A stretch of DNA of 64,000 nt from Xanthobacteraceae bacterium (GTDB lineage Bacteria; Pseudomonadota; Alphaproteobacteria; Rhizobiales; Xanthobacteraceae), in assembly GCA_030041005.1 (NCBI GenBank), contig JASHOR010000131.1, forward strand, positions 62,001-126,000, written 5' to 3'. A program made the translations under genes and the position numbers. The stretch's first letter is position 1. Each line of letters opens with the position of its first letter. The notes under the pieces are model-generated. The model was not told where the DNA came from and ran no database searches. It saw only the letters and a program-made list of their open reading frames with translations. Below are positions 3,019-58,311 of this stretch, one piece after another.

Positions 3019-3801
3019 ATGACGACGACCAATCCCACCACCTCGACGAGCACCAGTGCGGCCACCACTGCCGCGCAGGCTGCCGGTACGGCCGGTTCGC
3101 AAGAGCTTGCCGGCAACTTCGACACGTTTTTGCAGCTTTTGACCACGCAACTGCAGAACCAGGATCCGTTGAATCCGCTCGACACGAACCAGTTCACTCA
3201 GCAGCTCGTCGAGTTTGCCTCTGTCGAACAGCAGATCAATACCAACAGCAATCTGCAGACGTTGATCTCGCTTCAACAGGTATCGGAGGCGACTTCGGCG
3301 ATGCAGTTGCTTGGCGCCAACGTGACTATAAGCAGCGCAACCGCGGCGCTATCGAGCGGAACGCCGGCGACGTGGAATTTCTCCGTTCCTTCGCCGGCAA
3401 CCGGCACGGTCACCATCACCAATTCGTCCGGGGAGACGGCGTACACCGGAACGGTCTCGCTCAATGCCGGAAACCAGAGCTACACCTGGAACGGCACGGG
3501 GACGAACGGCGTGACCTGGCCCGCCGGCAATTACACGCTGTCGATCAACGCGACCGGCGCCAATGGCCAGGCGGTGACTGTCTCGACGCAAGTGCAAGGC
3601 GTCGTTACCGGGGTCAACGTCACCCAGAGTCCGCCGCAGGTCACGGTGGGGGGCGAGAGCTATCCAATCAGCTCGATCCAATCGCTCAACAATGGCAGTT
3701 CGAGCAGCATCACCGGCGGTACGAGCAGCGCCATCAGCAATCTCAACACGAGTATCGGCAATCTCAACACCACGATCAGCAATCTCATCCAATCGCTCTA
3801 G
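3019..3801 (+). CDS. flgD: Flagellar hook assembly/basal-body rod modification protein FlgD
   Basis: NFDTFLQLLTTQLQNQDPLNPLDTNQFTQQLVEFASVEQQI motif. Confidence 0.95.
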   Translation: MTTTNPTTSTSTSAATTAAQAAGTAGSQELAGNFDTFLQLLTTQLQNQDPLNPLDTNQFTQQLVEFASVEQQINTNSNLQTLISLQQVSEATSAMQLLGANVTISSATAALSSGTPATWNFSVPSPATGTVTITNSSGETAYTGTVSLNAGNQSYTWNGTGTNGVTWPAGNYTLSINATGANGQAVTVSTQVQGVVTGVNVTQSPPQVTVGGESYPISSIQSLNNGSSSSITGGTSSAISNLNTSIGNLNTTISNLIQSL

Positions 3802-3865
3802 TGTGGCGGTCCGCACGACGGGTTTGTCGCAAGAATGATGCAGACTTCAGAATCGCCACGCCGGC
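3799..3865 (+). repeat. Degenerate/short copy of the TAGTGTSSCG palindromic element (right boundary approximate)
   Basis: TAGTGTGGCGGT at 3799 equals the left end of the 58147 copy; AATGATGCAGACTTCAGAATCGCCACG resembles the inverted terminal AATGATGCGGACTTCTGAACCGCGACACTA of the 32957 copy. Confidence 0.55.
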
Positions 3866-10048: not shown

Positions 10049-10051
10049 GCG

Positions 10052-10170
10052 GCATTCCGGGGCGCGCCAAGCGCGAGCCCGGAATCCATAATCACTATCG
10101 GAGCCAGTCCCCCGCGGCGTCAGCGGATGTCGATTCCAGGCCCGCGGGCTGCGCCCGCGTCCCGGGATGA
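10052..10170. repeat. Extragenic palindromic repeat (GGAATCCATAAT family), copy R1
   Basis: CATTCCGGGGCGCGCC...GAGCCCGGAATCCATAATCAC...CCCGCGGGCTGCGCCCGCGTCCCGGGATGAC. Confidence 0.6.
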
Positions 10171-10493: not shown

Positions 10494-10600
10494 TTGTCAT
10501 TCCGGGACACGGCCGTAGGCCGCGGGTCCGGAATCCATAATCACAAACGCCGGGGCTATGGATTCCGGATTGCCGCTCCGCGGCAATCCGGAATGAGGCG
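10494..10600. repeat. Extragenic palindromic repeat (GGAATCCATAAT family), copy R2
   Basis: TGTCATTCCGGGACACGG...GTCCGGAATCCATAATCAC...CTATGGATTCCGGATTGCCGCTCCGCGGCAATCCGGAATGA. Confidence 0.65.
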
Positions 10601-15931: not shown

Positions 15932-17365
15932 ATGTCCCGATCAGGGTTTCGAGCAGGGAACCGCATGTGCCGGGCGTTCGAGGTCTTGCGGAGCGGTGGT
16001 TGGCTCACCGGCGAGCGCATCCGCATCATTGCCCTCACGCTGTTGGTGGCCTCTGCCGCCGGCTTTCTGTTTCTGGTCTTGACCGCCCATGGCGGCATCG
16101 ATCGCCAGGGTCGGCCACTTGGAACCGATTTCTCCGACGTCTACTCGGCGGGCACCTACGTGCGACAAGGCCAGCCCGCATTGCCGTTCGATCCGCCACG
16201 ACAATACGCCCGCGAGCAGGCGATATTCGGACCGGCAACGCCGTTCTACGGCTGGCATTATCCGCCGTACTTTCTTTTCATCGCGGGCGCCTTGGCGGAA
16301 ATGCCTTACGGGATCGCCCTTGCCGTGTGGCAGGCGGGTTCGCTCGCACTTTATCTGTTGGTGATCTGGGCAATCGTCGCGCCGCTGTCGTCCTCCCCCT
16401 TGCGGGGAGGGCCGAACGGCCAAAGGCCGTTCGGGTTGGGGGTCGCTGGGCAGAAATTTGAATCTATCCCCCCGCCTGCGGCGGCGACCTCCTCCATAAG
16501 GGGGCAGGCCAGTCCTCTTTGGCTCCTTCTCGCGCTCGCATTCCCGGCGGTGCTGATCAATATCGGGCACGGCCAGAACGGCTTTCTCACCGCCGGACTC
16601 CTCGGGGGTGCTCTCCTCGCCCTCGATCGCCGGCCGCTTCTCGCCGGCACCCTGATCGGTCTTCTGGTCTACAAGCCGCAATTCGGGCTGATGATCCCGC
16701 TCGCGCTCGCTGCCGGCGGATACTGGCGGAGTTTTGTCGCGGCCGTCGTAACGGTCGCGCTGCTCACAGTGTTGACCGTCGTCGTCTTCGGGCCACAGGT
16801 ATGGCAAGCGTTTCTGATCTCGACCGAATTTTCGCGCACCGTGGTGCTCGAACAGGGCGCGACCGGCTGGCAAAAGATACAAAGCCTGTTCTCGTGGGCG
16901 CGCATGTGGGGGGCGCCAATTCCGCTCGCCTATGCCTTGCAGGCCGCGCTGACCGTGGCTCTCGGCGCCTCGATCGTTTGGCTGTGGCGGAGTCCTGCGT
17001 CCGCGGCGCTTAGGAACGCTGCGCTCTGCCTCGCGGCGATCCTCGCCACGCCCTATTCGCTGGATTACGACATGATGGTTCTGGCGCCGGCAATCGCCTT
17101 CTTCGCGCTCGACGGCTTCGAGCGCGGCTTCCGTCCGTGGGAGAAGACCGGGCTCGCCGTGCTTTGGCTTGCGCCCCTGGTCAGCCGGAGCGTCGCGCAG
17201 GCGACGCTGATACCGCTTGGGGTTCCGGCCATGCTGGCCGCGTTTGTTCTGGTCCTGCGGCGTGCAGAGCTGGCACGACGATTTCCGGTAGCTTTGCCCG
17301 CGCAACCCTCTACAATCATGACAGCAGTCCCGCCGGATGGTCATGACATCGCCGCGTTCGAATAA
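15932..17365 (+). CDS. Glycosyltransferase family 87 / DUF2029 membrane protein (contains in-frame palindromic insert)
   Basis: Multi-TM; GTDFSDVYSAGTYVRQGQPALPFDP; PFYGWHYPPYFLF; VYKPQFGLMIPLALAAG; YDMMVLAPAI. Confidence 0.8.
   Translation: MSRSGFRAGNRMCRAFEVLRSGGWLTGERIRIIALTLLVASAAGFLFLVLTAHGGIDRQGRPLGTDFSDVYSAGTYVRQGQPALPFDPPRQYAREQAIFGPATPFYGWHYPPYFLFIAGALAEMPYGIALAVWQAGSLALYLLVIWAIVAPLSSSPLRGGPNGQRPFGLGVAGQKFESIPPPAAATSSIRGQASPLWLLLALAFPAVLINIGHGQNGFLTAGLLGGALLALDRRPLLAGTLIGLLVYKPQFGLMIPLALAAGGYWRSFVAAVVTVALLTVLTVVVFGPQVWQAFLISTEFSRTVVLEQGATGWQKIQSLFSWARMWGAPIPLAYALQAALTVALGASIVWLWRSPASAALRNAALCLAAILATPYSLDYDMMVLAPAIAFFALDGFERGFRPWEKTGLAVLWLAPLVSRSVAQATLIPLGVPAMLAAFVLVLRRAELARRFPVALPAQPSTIMTAVPPDGHDIAAFE
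16393..16510 (+). repeat. GC-rich palindromic repeat inside the GT87 CDS
   Basis: CCTCCCCCTTGCGGGGAGGG then perfect 10-bp inverted repeat CCGAACGGCC-AAA-GGCCGTTCGG (16412-16434), ends ...CCCCCCGCCTGCGGCGGCGACCTCCTCCATAAGGGGGC. Confidence 0.7.
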
Positions 17366-28569: not shown

Positions 28570-29631
28570 CTAGGCCGGCTGCGGCGGTACATAGGCGGCG
28601 CCGCTCGGAATGAATGCGTTGGTATACAGATCGCTCGTGGTGAGCGGCGTGGTGACGCCGCCGTACTGCTTGAGTACCGAGACGGTCGCCCGCCAGTCGA
28701 CATCGGAACCCCAACCGAGCGGCTTAGCCCTGGTGTTGGGCGTCACCCAGGTCTCCCACGATAATTCGAACTCGCGCTTGATGATCGCGACGTCGACCGT
28801 CGGCGAATACTTCTTTACGGTGGCTGCCGCCTCGTCGGGATGTTGACGGCCGTAGAGGAATCCCTTGATCGCGGCGGGTACGAAAGCCCGCAGGAGCGCA
28901 GGGTCGCTTTTGATCAGGTCGTTGTGGGTGATGATGCCGTTCGAGACGACCCTGACATTGTAATCGGAAAACCAGAAATAGCGCGCCTTTTTATTGCCGC
29001 GGATCTCGATGGCGGGCACGTAGCTCTGTACGTAAGCACCGATCGCATCCACCTTGCCGCTGATCAGGGCCGGTCCAAGGCTCGGCGGCGTCAGATTGAC
29101 GATCTGGATTTTCGAGGCGTCGAGGCCGGCGCCCTTGATGAAGGCCGGCCACTCCTGGAATTGGCCGCTGCCGGCGATCATCGCCAGGGTCCTGCCCTCC
29201 AGGTCCTTCGGCGATTTGATCGGTGAATCCGCGAGCACGATGATGGCCGACGGGTTGCGGCGGTAGATGCTGCCGATCGTCTTGATGTTCATGCCCTTCG
29301 AGATGCCCCTGGCGACGGCATAGCCGTCGGAAAAGCCGACCTGGGCCGCCTTGTTGGCGATCAACTGAGCCGTATTGCCAGAGCCTGTCCCGGCCGTGAT
29401 GGAGACATCAAGTCCGGCGTCGCGAAAATAACCCTGATCGTGCGCGATCAGGAATCCGACATTGGGTCCCTCATAGACCCAATCGAGCGTCATGCTCACG
29501 GGCTTGAGCGCGGTTGCGGCGCGGCCCGGGAAAGGCGCCAGCGGCAGGGCGAGGCCAGCAGCCGCGCCGGCCGTTCTACTGAGGAGCCGGCGCCGCGAAA
29601 GCGGCATGCGCTGAGAAGCAGGTTTATTCAT
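28570..29631 (-). CDS. NMT1/THI5-like ABC substrate-binding protein (paralogue 1)
   Basis: TAT-like SRRRLLSRTAG; MTLDWVYEGPNVGFLIAHDQGYFRDAGLDVSITAGTGSGNTAQLIANKAAQVGFSDG. Confidence 0.92.
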   Translation of the reverse strand: MNKPASQRMPLSRRRLLSRTAGAAAGLALPLAPFPGRAATALKPVSMTLDWVYEGPNVGFLIAHDQGYFRDAGLDVSITAGTGSGNTAQLIANKAAQVGFSDGYAVARGISKGMNIKTIGSIYRRNPSAIIVLADSPIKSPKDLEGRTLAMIAGSGQFQEWPAFIKGAGLDASKIQIVNLTPPSLGPALISGKVDAIGAYVQSYVPAIEIRGNKKARYFWFSDYNVRVVSNGIITHNDLIKSDPALLRAFVPAAIKGFLYGRQHPDEAAATVKKYSPTVDVAIIKREFELSWETWVTPNTRAKPLGWGSDVDWRATVSVLKQYGGVTTPLTTSDLYTNAFIPSGAAYVPPQPA

Positions 29632-32956: not shown

Positions 32957-33121
32957 CTAGTGTCCCGATTCCGAAGTTCGCATCATTATGCGGCACCCTC
33001 GTTTGCGAACTTCGGAATCGAAGGACACTCGCAACTTATTGATCTCGTGTGGCTTTGGTTCAGAAATCCGCATGACGAGGTCGCGGCAGAAATGATGCGG
33101 ACTTCTGAACCGCGACACTAG
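32957..33121 (-). repeat. 165-bp two-hairpin palindromic element, copy A (CTAG to CTAG)
   Basis: CTAGTGTCCCGATTCCGAAGTTCGCATCATTATG...TGATGCGGACTTCTGAACCGCGACACTAG; reverse complement is near-identical to 58147-58311. Confidence 0.93.
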
Positions 33122-34179
33122 GCTTGCTGGGGCGGCACGTATTGCGCGCCGGTTGGGACGAATTCGTTGGTGTAGAGTTGGCTGGTCTGCAGCGGGGCCG
33201 TCACGCCGCCGTATTGCCTGAGCACTTCGATGGTGCCGGCCCAGTCGGTCTCGGACGCCCAGCCGAGCGGCTTGCCCTTGGTGTTGGGGCTCACCCAGGT
33301 CTTCCACCCAAGCTCGCATTCGAGCCGGGTCACTTCCGGATTGGCGGTGGGCTGGTATTTCTTCACGGTGGCGATCGCTTCGTCGATGTGCTGGCGGCCG
33401 TAGAGAAAGCCTTTGATCGTAGCCGGGACAAAGCCGCGAAGGATGTCGGGGCTGCTCTTGAGCGTGTCCAGATGCACGATGATGCCGTTGCTCACCACGG
33501 TCACGCCGTAATCCGCGAACCAGAACATTCGCAGCTTTTTCTTGCCGCGAATTTCGATGCTCGGCGCATAGCTGAAGACATAGCCACCGATGGCATCGAC
33601 TTTGCCGCTGACCAAGGCCGGGCCGACGCCGGCTGGATCGATGTTGATGATCCGGATTTTGGAAGGATCGATGCCGGCGCCTTTTGCGAAAGCCGGCCAT
33701 TGCTGAAACTGCGCGCTGCCCGCCGTCATGGCGACGGTCTTGCCTTCGAGATCCTTCGGCGTCTTGATCGGCGAATCATCCAACACCATCAGCGCGGCGG
33801 GGTCGCGCCGATAGATGCTGCCGACGGTCTTGATCTTCATGCCTTTGGCGATGCTGTTACCGACGACATATCCGTCGGAAAAGCCGATCTGTGTCGCCTT
33901 GCTCGCTACAAGTTGAGCAGTCGTTGCCGAACCGTTTCCCGGGCTGATCGATACGTCGAGCCCGGCATCGCGGTAATAGCCCTTCTCCTTTGCCACCAAA
34001 AATCCGACGCTGGCGCCCTGGTAGAGCCAGTCGAGCGTGAACGTTACGGATTTGAGAGGTGCTGCCGCGCGAGCACGTAACGGCGCCGCCTGCGCAGCGA
34101 TCGTTCCCGCCGCCAGTGCCGAATTTTTGAGAAAGCGACGGCGCGACAGTGGTGCGCGGGGAAAAAGCTGCGAATTCAT
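33118..34179 (-). CDS. NMT1/THI5-like ABC substrate-binding protein (paralogue 2)
   Basis: LSRRRFLKNSALAAG; FTLDWLYQGASVGFLVAKEKGYYRDAGLDVSISPGNGSATTAQLVASKATQIGFSDG; stop TAG lies in the repeat terminus. Confidence 0.92.
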   Translation of the reverse strand: MNSQLFPRAPLSRRRFLKNSALAAGTIAAQAAPLRARAAAPLKSVTFTLDWLYQGASVGFLVAKEKGYYRDAGLDVSISPGNGSATTAQLVASKATQIGFSDGYVVGNSIAKGMKIKTVGSIYRRDPAALMVLDDSPIKTPKDLEGKTVAMTAGSAQFQQWPAFAKGAGIDPSKIRIINIDPAGVGPALVSGKVDAIGGYVFSYAPSIEIRGKKKLRMFWFADYGVTVVSNGIIVHLDTLKSSPDILRGFVPATIKGFLYGRQHIDEAIATVKKYQPTANPEVTRLECELGWKTWVSPNTKGKPLGWASETDWAGTIEVLRQYGGVTAPLQTSQLYTNEFVPTGAQYVPPQQA

Positions 34180-34331
34180 GAAAGTACCTCCCGGCGGATG
34201 TCGTTGCGGCACGGAGACAACATACAGGCAGGCGAAAGGGCGTGTCATGCCTCGCCTCGGTTAGCTCCTCAGCAGCAGCCACGCGCCGCCGCGCGGTTAG
34301 CGTAATTCTTCTGCCGCGGGATCGCGATCCA

Positions 34332-35390
34332 TCACGCCTCCTGCGGCGGGACGTATTCGGCTCCGCTTGGCACGAACTCGTTCGTATAGAGCTCGCTCGG
34401 TGCAAGCGCGGCGGTGACCCCGCCATATCGCTTAAGCACTTGAATGGTTGAAGCCCAATCGGCATCCGAACCCCAGCCGAGCGGCTTGCCCTTGGTGTTC
34501 GGCGTCACCCAGGTTTTCCATGAGAGCTCCAGCTCGCGCCGGGTGATCGCCGGTGTGATGGTCGGCAGATACGCCCTGACCGCAGCCACTGCCTCGGCGG
34601 GGTGTTGCCGCCCATACAGGAAGCCTTTGATTGTCGGCGGCACGAAAGTGCGCAACAGGTCGGGATCGCTCTTGATCAGGTCCTGGTGCACGATGATGCC
34701 GTTTGAGACGACGGTGACGCCGTAATCGGCAAACCAGAAGATGCGCACCTTTTTCTTGCTGCGGATTTCGATCGCCGGCACGTAACCCTGGGCAAAGCCG
34801 CAGATTGCATCGACCTTGCCGCTCACCAGCGCCGGTCCGACCCCGGCCGGATCGACATTGATGATCCGGATCTTGGAATCGTCGACTCCGGCGCCTTTGA
34901 CGAAGGCCGGCCACTGCTGAAATTGCGCACTGCCCGCGGTCATGGCGACACTCTTGCCCGCGAGATCCTTCGGCGTCTCGATGCCGGAATCGGCCAGCGT
35001 TACGACGGCGGCTGGATTGCGCCTGAATATGCTGCCGACGGTTCTGATCGCGATGCCTCTGGCAACGCTGTTGCCGACGACATAACCGTCGGCAAACCCG
35101 ATCTGAGTTGCCTTGCTGCCGACCAATTGGGCCGTGGTGCCCGAGCCCTTTCCGGAGTTGATGGTGACATCAAGCCCCGCATCGCGATAAAAGCCCTTCT
35201 GCTGGGCCACCATGAAGCCGACATTTGGACCCTGATAAATCCAGTCGAGCGTCATCTCCACCTTCTTCAGCGTGGCCGCGCCCACCCGGCGTGAGATCGC
35301 CGGCAGGACCAACGCACCGGCGGCCAGCGTGGACTTTTTCAACACGCGGCGGCGGGACAGCACTGAGACCTTTGCATCACCAACGGCCAT
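34332..35390 (-). CDS. NMT1/THI5-like ABC substrate-binding protein (paralogue 3)
   Basis: LSRRRVLKKSTLAAG; MTLDWIYQGPNVGFMVAQQKGFYRDAGLDVTINSGKGSGTTAQLVGSKATQIGFADG. Confidence 0.92.
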   Translation of the reverse strand: MAVGDAKVSVLSRRRVLKKSTLAAGALVLPAISRRVGAATLKKVEMTLDWIYQGPNVGFMVAQQKGFYRDAGLDVTINSGKGSGTTAQLVGSKATQIGFADGYVVGNSVARGIAIRTVGSIFRRNPAAVVTLADSGIETPKDLAGKSVAMTAGSAQFQQWPAFVKGAGVDDSKIRIINVDPAGVGPALVSGKVDAICGFAQGYVPAIEIRSKKKVRIFWFADYGVTVVSNGIIVHQDLIKSDPDLLRTFVPPTIKGFLYGRQHPAEAVAAVRAYLPTITPAITRRELELSWKTWVTPNTKGKPLGWGSDADWASTIQVLKRYGGVTAALAPSELYTNEFVPSGAEYVPPQEA

Positions 35391-50296: not shown

Positions 50297-50409
50297 TCCG
50301 CGGGCGCGCGTTGCGCGAGCCCGGAATCCATAACCACTGACTGCGAAGACATTGCAAGGACACGGATTATGGATTCCGGACAGCCGCTTCGCGGCTTCCG
50401 GAATGACGC
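50287..50409. repeat. Extragenic palindromic repeat (GGAATCCATAAT family), copy R3
   Basis: GGCATTCCGCGGGCGCGCGTTGCGCGAGCCCGGAATCCATAACCAC...CGGATTATGGATTCCGGACAGCCGCTTCGCGGCTTCCGGAATGACGC. Confidence 0.65.
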
Positions 50410-57433: not shown

Positions 57434-58150
57434 GTGCGACTCCTCGTCACGCGTCCGCAACCCGACGCCCAGCGCACAGCCGAAGCGTTACGAACGTCCG
57501 GGCACAGCGCCATCGTCGCTCCGCTTCTGCATATCGAAGCCGTGGCGAACGTCCAGTTTGGCGCCGGGCCGTGGGCGGCAATCGTAGTCACCAGCGCCAA
57601 CGCCGCGGCCGCAATCGCCGCGCACGAACGTCGTGCTTCGCTGCTCCACCTGCCGGCCTTCGCAGTCGGCGACCGCAGCGCCGAAGCCATGCGCGCCGCA
57701 GGCTTTGCCGATGTAATCTCCGCCGGCGGCGCGGTCGACGATCTCGTGCGCCTCGTGGCTGCGCACACGAAACCGGGCTCGCGGCTTCTCTATCTCGCCG
57801 GCGAGGACCGCTCCGGCGATCTTGCCGGCAACGTCGGCAGGCATGGATTGACGCTGGAGACAGTCGTGCTCTATCGCGCGGTCATGGTGGAGACGTTGCC
57901 GCAAGCTGCGCTTGATGCATTGAGCGTCGGCTTGGACGGCGTGCTGCACTTCTCGCGCCGCAGCGCCGAGGCTTATCTGCGGGCGGCACAGGCCGGGAGC
58001 ATCCTTGAAGCGGCGCTGACGCCTGCACATTTCTGTCTGTCACCACGCACCGCGCAGCCGCTGCAGCGGGCCGGCGCCCGACGCGTGCACGTGGCGCGCC
58101 AGCCGGACGAGGCGGCGCTGATCGCCATCGTCGAGTCACATTCGCGATAG
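57434..58150 (+). CDS. hemD: Uroporphyrinogen-III synthase
   Basis: MRLLVTRPQPDAQRTAEALRTSGHSAIVAPLLHIEAV; follows hemC. Confidence 0.93.
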   Translation: MRLLVTRPQPDAQRTAEALRTSGHSAIVAPLLHIEAVANVQFGAGPWAAIVVTSANAAAAIAAHERRASLLHLPAFAVGDRSAEAMRAAGFADVISAGGAVDDLVRLVAAHTKPGSRLLYLAGEDRSGDLAGNVGRHGLTLETVVLYRAVMVETLPQAALDALSVGLDGVLHFSRRSAEAYLRAAQAGSILEAALTPAHFCLSPRTAQPLQRAGARRVHVARQPDEAALIAIVESHSR

Positions 58151-58311
58151 TGTGGCGGTTCTGAAATCCGCATCATTTCTGCCGCGACCTCGTCATGCGG
58201 ATTTCTGAACCAAAGCCACACTAGATCAATAAGTTGCGAGTGTCCTTCGATTCCGAAGTTTGCAAATGAGGGTGCCGCATAATGATGCGAATTTCGGAAT
58301 CGGGACACTAG
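58147..58311 (+). repeat. 165-bp two-hairpin palindromic element, copy B
   Basis: ATAGTGTGGCGGTTCTGAAATCCGCATCATTTCTGCC...GATGCGAATTTCGGAATCGGGACACTAG; reverse complement of copy A with only a handful of mismatches. Confidence 0.93.

Follow-up and report, generated by a model that had tools for sequence, protein, structure and literature searches.

Two palindromic units of 165 bp and a shorter relic lie exactly at the ends of three genes in an alphaproteobacterial draft assembly of 4.9 Mb in 188 contigs, which raises the question of what kind of element they are and why their first TAG coincides with the stop codon of the neighbouring gene. They were found in the window, that is, the whole stretch of 64,000 nucleotides that was analysed, which is part of contig C180. 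The original prediction was correct with regard to the layout of these copies (Table 1): the CTAG-to-CTAG unit recurs in inverted orientation with a 96% match in the sequence comparison within the window, the degenerate copy is present, and the first TAG is the stop codon of the upstream gene in all three cases. The identities of these genes (NMT1-type binding protein, HemD and FlgD) were checked in Pfam.

Table 1. Copies of the element in the window, with their parts and the adjoining stop codons
Feature	Position	Strand	Details
Copy A (probable MITE), CTAG to CTAG	32957-33121	-	L-to-R orientation on the minus strand
159-bp core of copy A	32960-33118		TA flanks at 32958-32959 and 33119-33120
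L hairpin of copy A	33047-33118	-	outer arm GTGTCGCGGTTCAGAAGTCCGCAT; extra bases in the inner arm
Inter-hairpin spacer of copy A	33029-33046	-	minus-strand sequence GAGATCAATAAGTTGCGA
R hairpin of copy A	32960-33028	-	outer arm, read inward, GTGTCCCGATTCCGAAGTTCGCAT
TAG stop of NMT1/THI5-like binding protein	33118-33120	-	flanking TA and the first G of the element
Copy B (probable MITE)	58147-58311	+	core 58150-58308; TA at 58148-58149 and 58309-58310
TAG stop of hemD	58148-58150	+	restored where copy B begins on the left
Degenerate single-hairpin relic, same family as copies A and B	3798-3859	-	its TAG is the flgD stop (3799-3801)

Architecture, target site and relatives

The element reads C-TA-(G...159 bp...C)-TA-G and comprises two hairpins, L and R, separated by a spacer of 18 bp. 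The two tandem hairpins described in the original prediction were confirmed by a fold whose stability is far beyond chance (MFE -80.8, z = -8.6). Full-length copies were searched for with a profile in a 1.75-Mb sample of the host genome, taken as loci and enriched for copy-bearing contigs, in which genes were predicted with a codon-usage model. This sample contained 72 full-length copies, of which 59 belong to family A and 13 to family B, a sister family that shares its two-hairpin architecture; the element is thus short, non-coding and present in high copy number. Family B elements (TAGTGGAGCGGATTTGACATTCGC ... GAATGTTGGAATCGGACCACTA), which have the same layout and type of spacer, occur at L166:127-454, L126:15612-15850 and L158:4260-4425, among others, and they also serve as an insertion site for family A.

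The inner arm of a hairpin differs from the outer arm by 2-3 extra bases located close to its CTAG, a few positions away; GTGTGGCTTTGG and GTGTGGCGG are an example. Family A shows this insertion in each of its two hairpins, and it recurs in family B and in related sequences. We infer that the shift would prevent use of the inner ends, so that the pair of hairpins would move as one unit. In tandem head-to-tail arrays, adjacent units share a single four-base junction, giving a period of 161 bp; the junction is CTAG or a variant of it, often CTCG.

In the alignment of the copies, the TA is enclosed by a conserved C and a conserved G, and the bases further out are random. Approximately 40% of the ends read other than CTAG, and copy B itself is flanked by A-TA-G on the left and by C-TA-G on the right. 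The duplication of the TA target is apparent from a nested insertion: copy C114:201-365 lies within a family B element between two TAs, where uninterrupted family B copies have a single TA. Base-exact empty sites were obtained from nested sites only; the orthologous hemD locus yielded none because the congeners are only about 70% identical. At L164 (about 16290-16525), another insertion nested in family B has an additional TACTC next to the TA; these five bases may be the footprint of an earlier excision.

With regard to the ends, IS630-type elements of related genera encode DDE_3 transposases, have CTAG on both sides and carry ends such as TAGTGTCCTGAACCAGAAGTTCGCAACATC and TAGTGTCCCGAGTCATAAGTTCGCAACATT. 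The outer 30 bases of the element matched these autonomous ends at up to 26 of 30 positions for R and up to 23 of 30 for L; the terminal inverted repeats are thus shared with autonomous ISs of related genera. At 14 distinct related IS loci, which end in ...CAC-TAG, the transposase frame extends across the terminal repeat to a TAG that is completed by the target; it is the transposase of these related ISs, and not the MITE, for which the CTAG target supplies a stop codon. IS870 is known from the literature to behave in this way (cited in PMC6471742), and the CTAG preference of IS630 is consistent with it (cited in PMC2170065). One such transposase ends in ...MLRTSGSGH*, and the two ends of the MITE, read outward, give MMRTSESGH* and MMRTSEPPH*, with variants in copy A. 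The only complete IS630 with CTAG ends found in the host genome matches the MITE more weakly (16-20 of 30 positions); the actual driver may have been lost, or may be missing from the 188-contig assembly. This resident IS630 (L192:1369-2531, G000:C183) is intact, measures 1162 bp and lies within the CTAG that terminates a related MITE, and the stop codon of its transposase is completed by the target site.

The sequences point to a non-autonomous two-hairpin MITE of the IS630 (Tc1/mariner) family, probably moved in trans by the transposase of an IS630 that targets CTAG, and we give this reading a probability of about 0.93. What weighs against it is the weaker match of the resident IS630, the restriction of base-exact empty sites to nested copies, and the share of ends without CTAG. 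The ends, the target, the TA flanks, the uninterrupted nested site, the distribution and the related autonomous ISs are direct observations, whereas mobilisation in trans is inferred. According to this model, the 159-bp core, consisting of two imperfect hairpins and the spacer, would insert at the TA of CTAG and leave a TA on both sides. As the core begins with G, an insertion into a TAG stop codon would restore TAG and keep the protein intact. Insertions within genes would be removed by selection, and the surviving copies would therefore be divided between stop codons and CTAG sites in intergenic DNA, approximately in proportion to the occurrence of such sites. A non-autonomous IS630/Tc1-mariner element targeting CTAG/TA and tolerated at TAG stops was one of the two options initially put forward, and it is well supported by the TA flanks, the nested site and the IS630-like ends.

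Position of the copies relative to genes and stop codons

Judging from the protein ends and from the congeners, the insertions at hemD and at the binding protein gene rebuilt the stop codon, and the proteins were evidently not shortened. The binding protein upstream of copy A ends in YVPPQEA and its paralogue at 34332-35390 in YVPPQQA, a shared C-terminus which argues against shortening. At the hemD locus, the element is absent in 15 congeners, and three element-free congeners have TGA at the exact codon position where the host has TAG. The genes at 28570-29607, 33118-34248 and 34332-35390 are repeated genes, 68-71% alike over 300-nt blocks; in Pfam the second is the NMT1/THI5-like binding protein, of which the third is a close paralogue. 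The window also contains a short inverted/direct repeat of a different kind, GAGCCCGGAATCCATAATCAC, which has no sequence relationship to the element and is present at 10049-10093, 10509-10545 and 50302-50409.

None of the 72 full copies in the 1.75-Mb sample lies within a predicted gene. The description of the element as stop-anchored holds for all three copies in the window but not genome-wide, where the element TAG is used as a stop codon by only 19 of the 72 full copies (26%). These anchored copies use the L end in eight cases and the R end in 11, and the consistent orientation that had been taken as an argument against random insertion is therefore lost, together with the argument. Read inward, either end of the element begins with TAGTGTSSCG, and this motif beside a stop codon therefore carries no information on orientation; the apparently fixed orientation in the window results from this symmetry and from small numbers.

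The other option initially put forward was a mobile terminator or attenuator, or an RNA-stability element, recruited to operon junctions. That such a functional element, or one stabilising the 3'-UTR, is held at gene ends by selection on RNA structure is very improbable. The very stable fold would be expected of such an element, and the hairpins are retained in family B despite different arms; nevertheless, the arms would be symmetrical in any case, since each of them is a terminal repeat, and the 20-56 arm pair is disrupted in 26 of the 72 copies. The genomic context does not suit a role at gene ends either. Ten of the 72 copies are flanked on either side by a gene transcribed away from the copy, genes face either end about equally often, and the share of copies at stop codons equals the CTAG background (see below). 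No terminator-like site was found in the copy A region, to which the scan was confined, and the only Rfam match in the window was a tRNA.

A specific targeting of stop codons, or of translation or transcription ends, was likewise judged very improbable. When positions were tabulated relative to stop codons, 50 gene ends were found to face a full copy, and 19 of them fall exactly on the element TAG while the other distances are scattered, a pattern that does suggest targeting. The majority of copies, however, lie away from stop codons, and CTAG targeting outside genes predicts a similar share: of the 230 CTAG sites located outside genes and elements, 45 (20%) are stop codons, compared with 26% of the copies (Fisher p = 0.25; for family A alone, 17 of 59, p = 0.15). 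Given this agreement, target choice and purifying selection explain the anchoring, and no special targeting is needed.

Comparison with known mobile elements and distribution

An 18-mer end pattern gave 273 matches in the host genome and none in a reversed control, which places the repeat far above chance across the genome. Among the 61 genomes searched, congeners had between 0 and 60 matches and other genera of the family between 0 and 63; outside the family the pattern was essentially absent from these genomes, with one single-mismatch match. The copy number is patchy across the genus. The same L end is carried by records named as Hyphomicrobiales, Xanthobacteraceae, Pseudolabrys and Bradyrhizobium metagenome genomes. 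A text search of open papers with the end sequences of the element returned no description of it.

The closest parallels are drawn here from published descriptions. RUP of Streptococcus pneumoniae, a MITE for which mobilisation by IS630-Spn1 has been proposed, is likewise short, non-coding and high-copy, with TA termini and IS630-like ends (PMC2229807); as described there, it measures 107 bp, whereas the present element has a CTAG target and two tandem hairpins with inner arms unlike the outer ones. Correia/NEMIS elements of Neisseria are also TA-flanked MITEs, of 100-160 bp, with hairpin transcripts, but they are described as single units bearing 24-bp terminal repeats of their own, and the available description of them mentions no two-hairpin units with an internal CTAG (PMC2229807). 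The preference of IS630 for the TA in CTAG is attributed to Tenzen and Ohtsubo (cited in PMC2170065), and the requirement of IS870 for CTAG, which makes the stop codon of its own gene, to Fournier et al. (cited in PMC6471742). In contrast to these two elements, which are autonomous, the present element gives the TAG to a flanking host gene and not to a transposase.

A palindromic repeat of the REP/BIME type, propagated by a Y1 (RAYT) transposase, inserting beside a tetranucleotide and able to supply TAG stops, would share with the present element its two-hairpin palindromic form, its high copy number and the fact that the termini of GTAG REPs often give neighbouring ORFs their TAG stops (PMC3733652), but GTAG REPs are tied to tyrosine transposases and are 20-40 bp long with GTAG at one end, whereas the hairpins here are 69-72 bp long, have CTAG at both ends and resemble the terminal repeats of IS630 at their ends. 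No intact Y1 transposase flanked by repeats was found in the genome, where the sole trace of Y1_Tnp is a remnant of 36 positions that scores under the family cut-off; such an origin is hardly credible.

The IS630-family MITE reading thus provides a simple, tested rule for repeats that appear glued to stop codons: a CTAG-targeting transposase, an element starting with G, and selection against intragenic insertions. The same rule ties the stops of host genes to the published behaviour of IS870.

Instability of the CTAG sites

While the element belongs to a known kind, the instability of its CTAG sites is the part most worth following. At the four CTAG sites, the TA is substituted far more rapidly than other positions of the element, as estimated by parsimony on a tree built from all remaining alignment columns. 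The numbers of steps at the four TA sites were 4 and 21, 18 and 4, 21 and 8, and 7 and 7; the remaining positions of the element needed a median of 1 step and never more than 7. In family A, the changes go to C or G and the flanking C and G are stable. Both the target-derived outer sites and the inherited inner sites are affected. The scope of this observation comprises loci L001-L190 of the host genome and three other species (G013, G012 and G026), in all of which variant ends are common; in G013, 14 of 34 ends read CTAG by our own count.

CTAG was also depleted in the 1.75-Mb sample as a whole, with 548 observed occurrences, 199 of them within elements, against 1335 expected from a Markov estimate. 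Many bacteria are strongly depleted in CTAG, for reasons that are still called open in the literature.

Three explanations of the TA variation were rejected. Repair by Vsr would leave the A-to-C changes unexplained, and no Vsr gene was found in the host genome. Hairpin-templated conversion would make outer and inner sites complementary, which they are not significantly (p about 0.12 per hairpin). Finally, the variants do not represent a duplicated non-TA target, as the left and right ends are mostly discordant. Selection against CTAG, a mutational process directed at CTAG and damage by the transposase are possible causes of the loss of TA.

It is conceivable, although on balance rather unlikely, that the four CTAG sites of each copy record an active CTAG-destroying process, which would act on ends and inner junctions alike and in several species. 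If this were true, the repeat family would constitute a natural reporter for the mechanism of CTAG loss, be it mutation, repair, restriction or nicking by the transposase. The fast loss of TA offers dozens of parallel copies within one genome for the study of CTAG avoidance.
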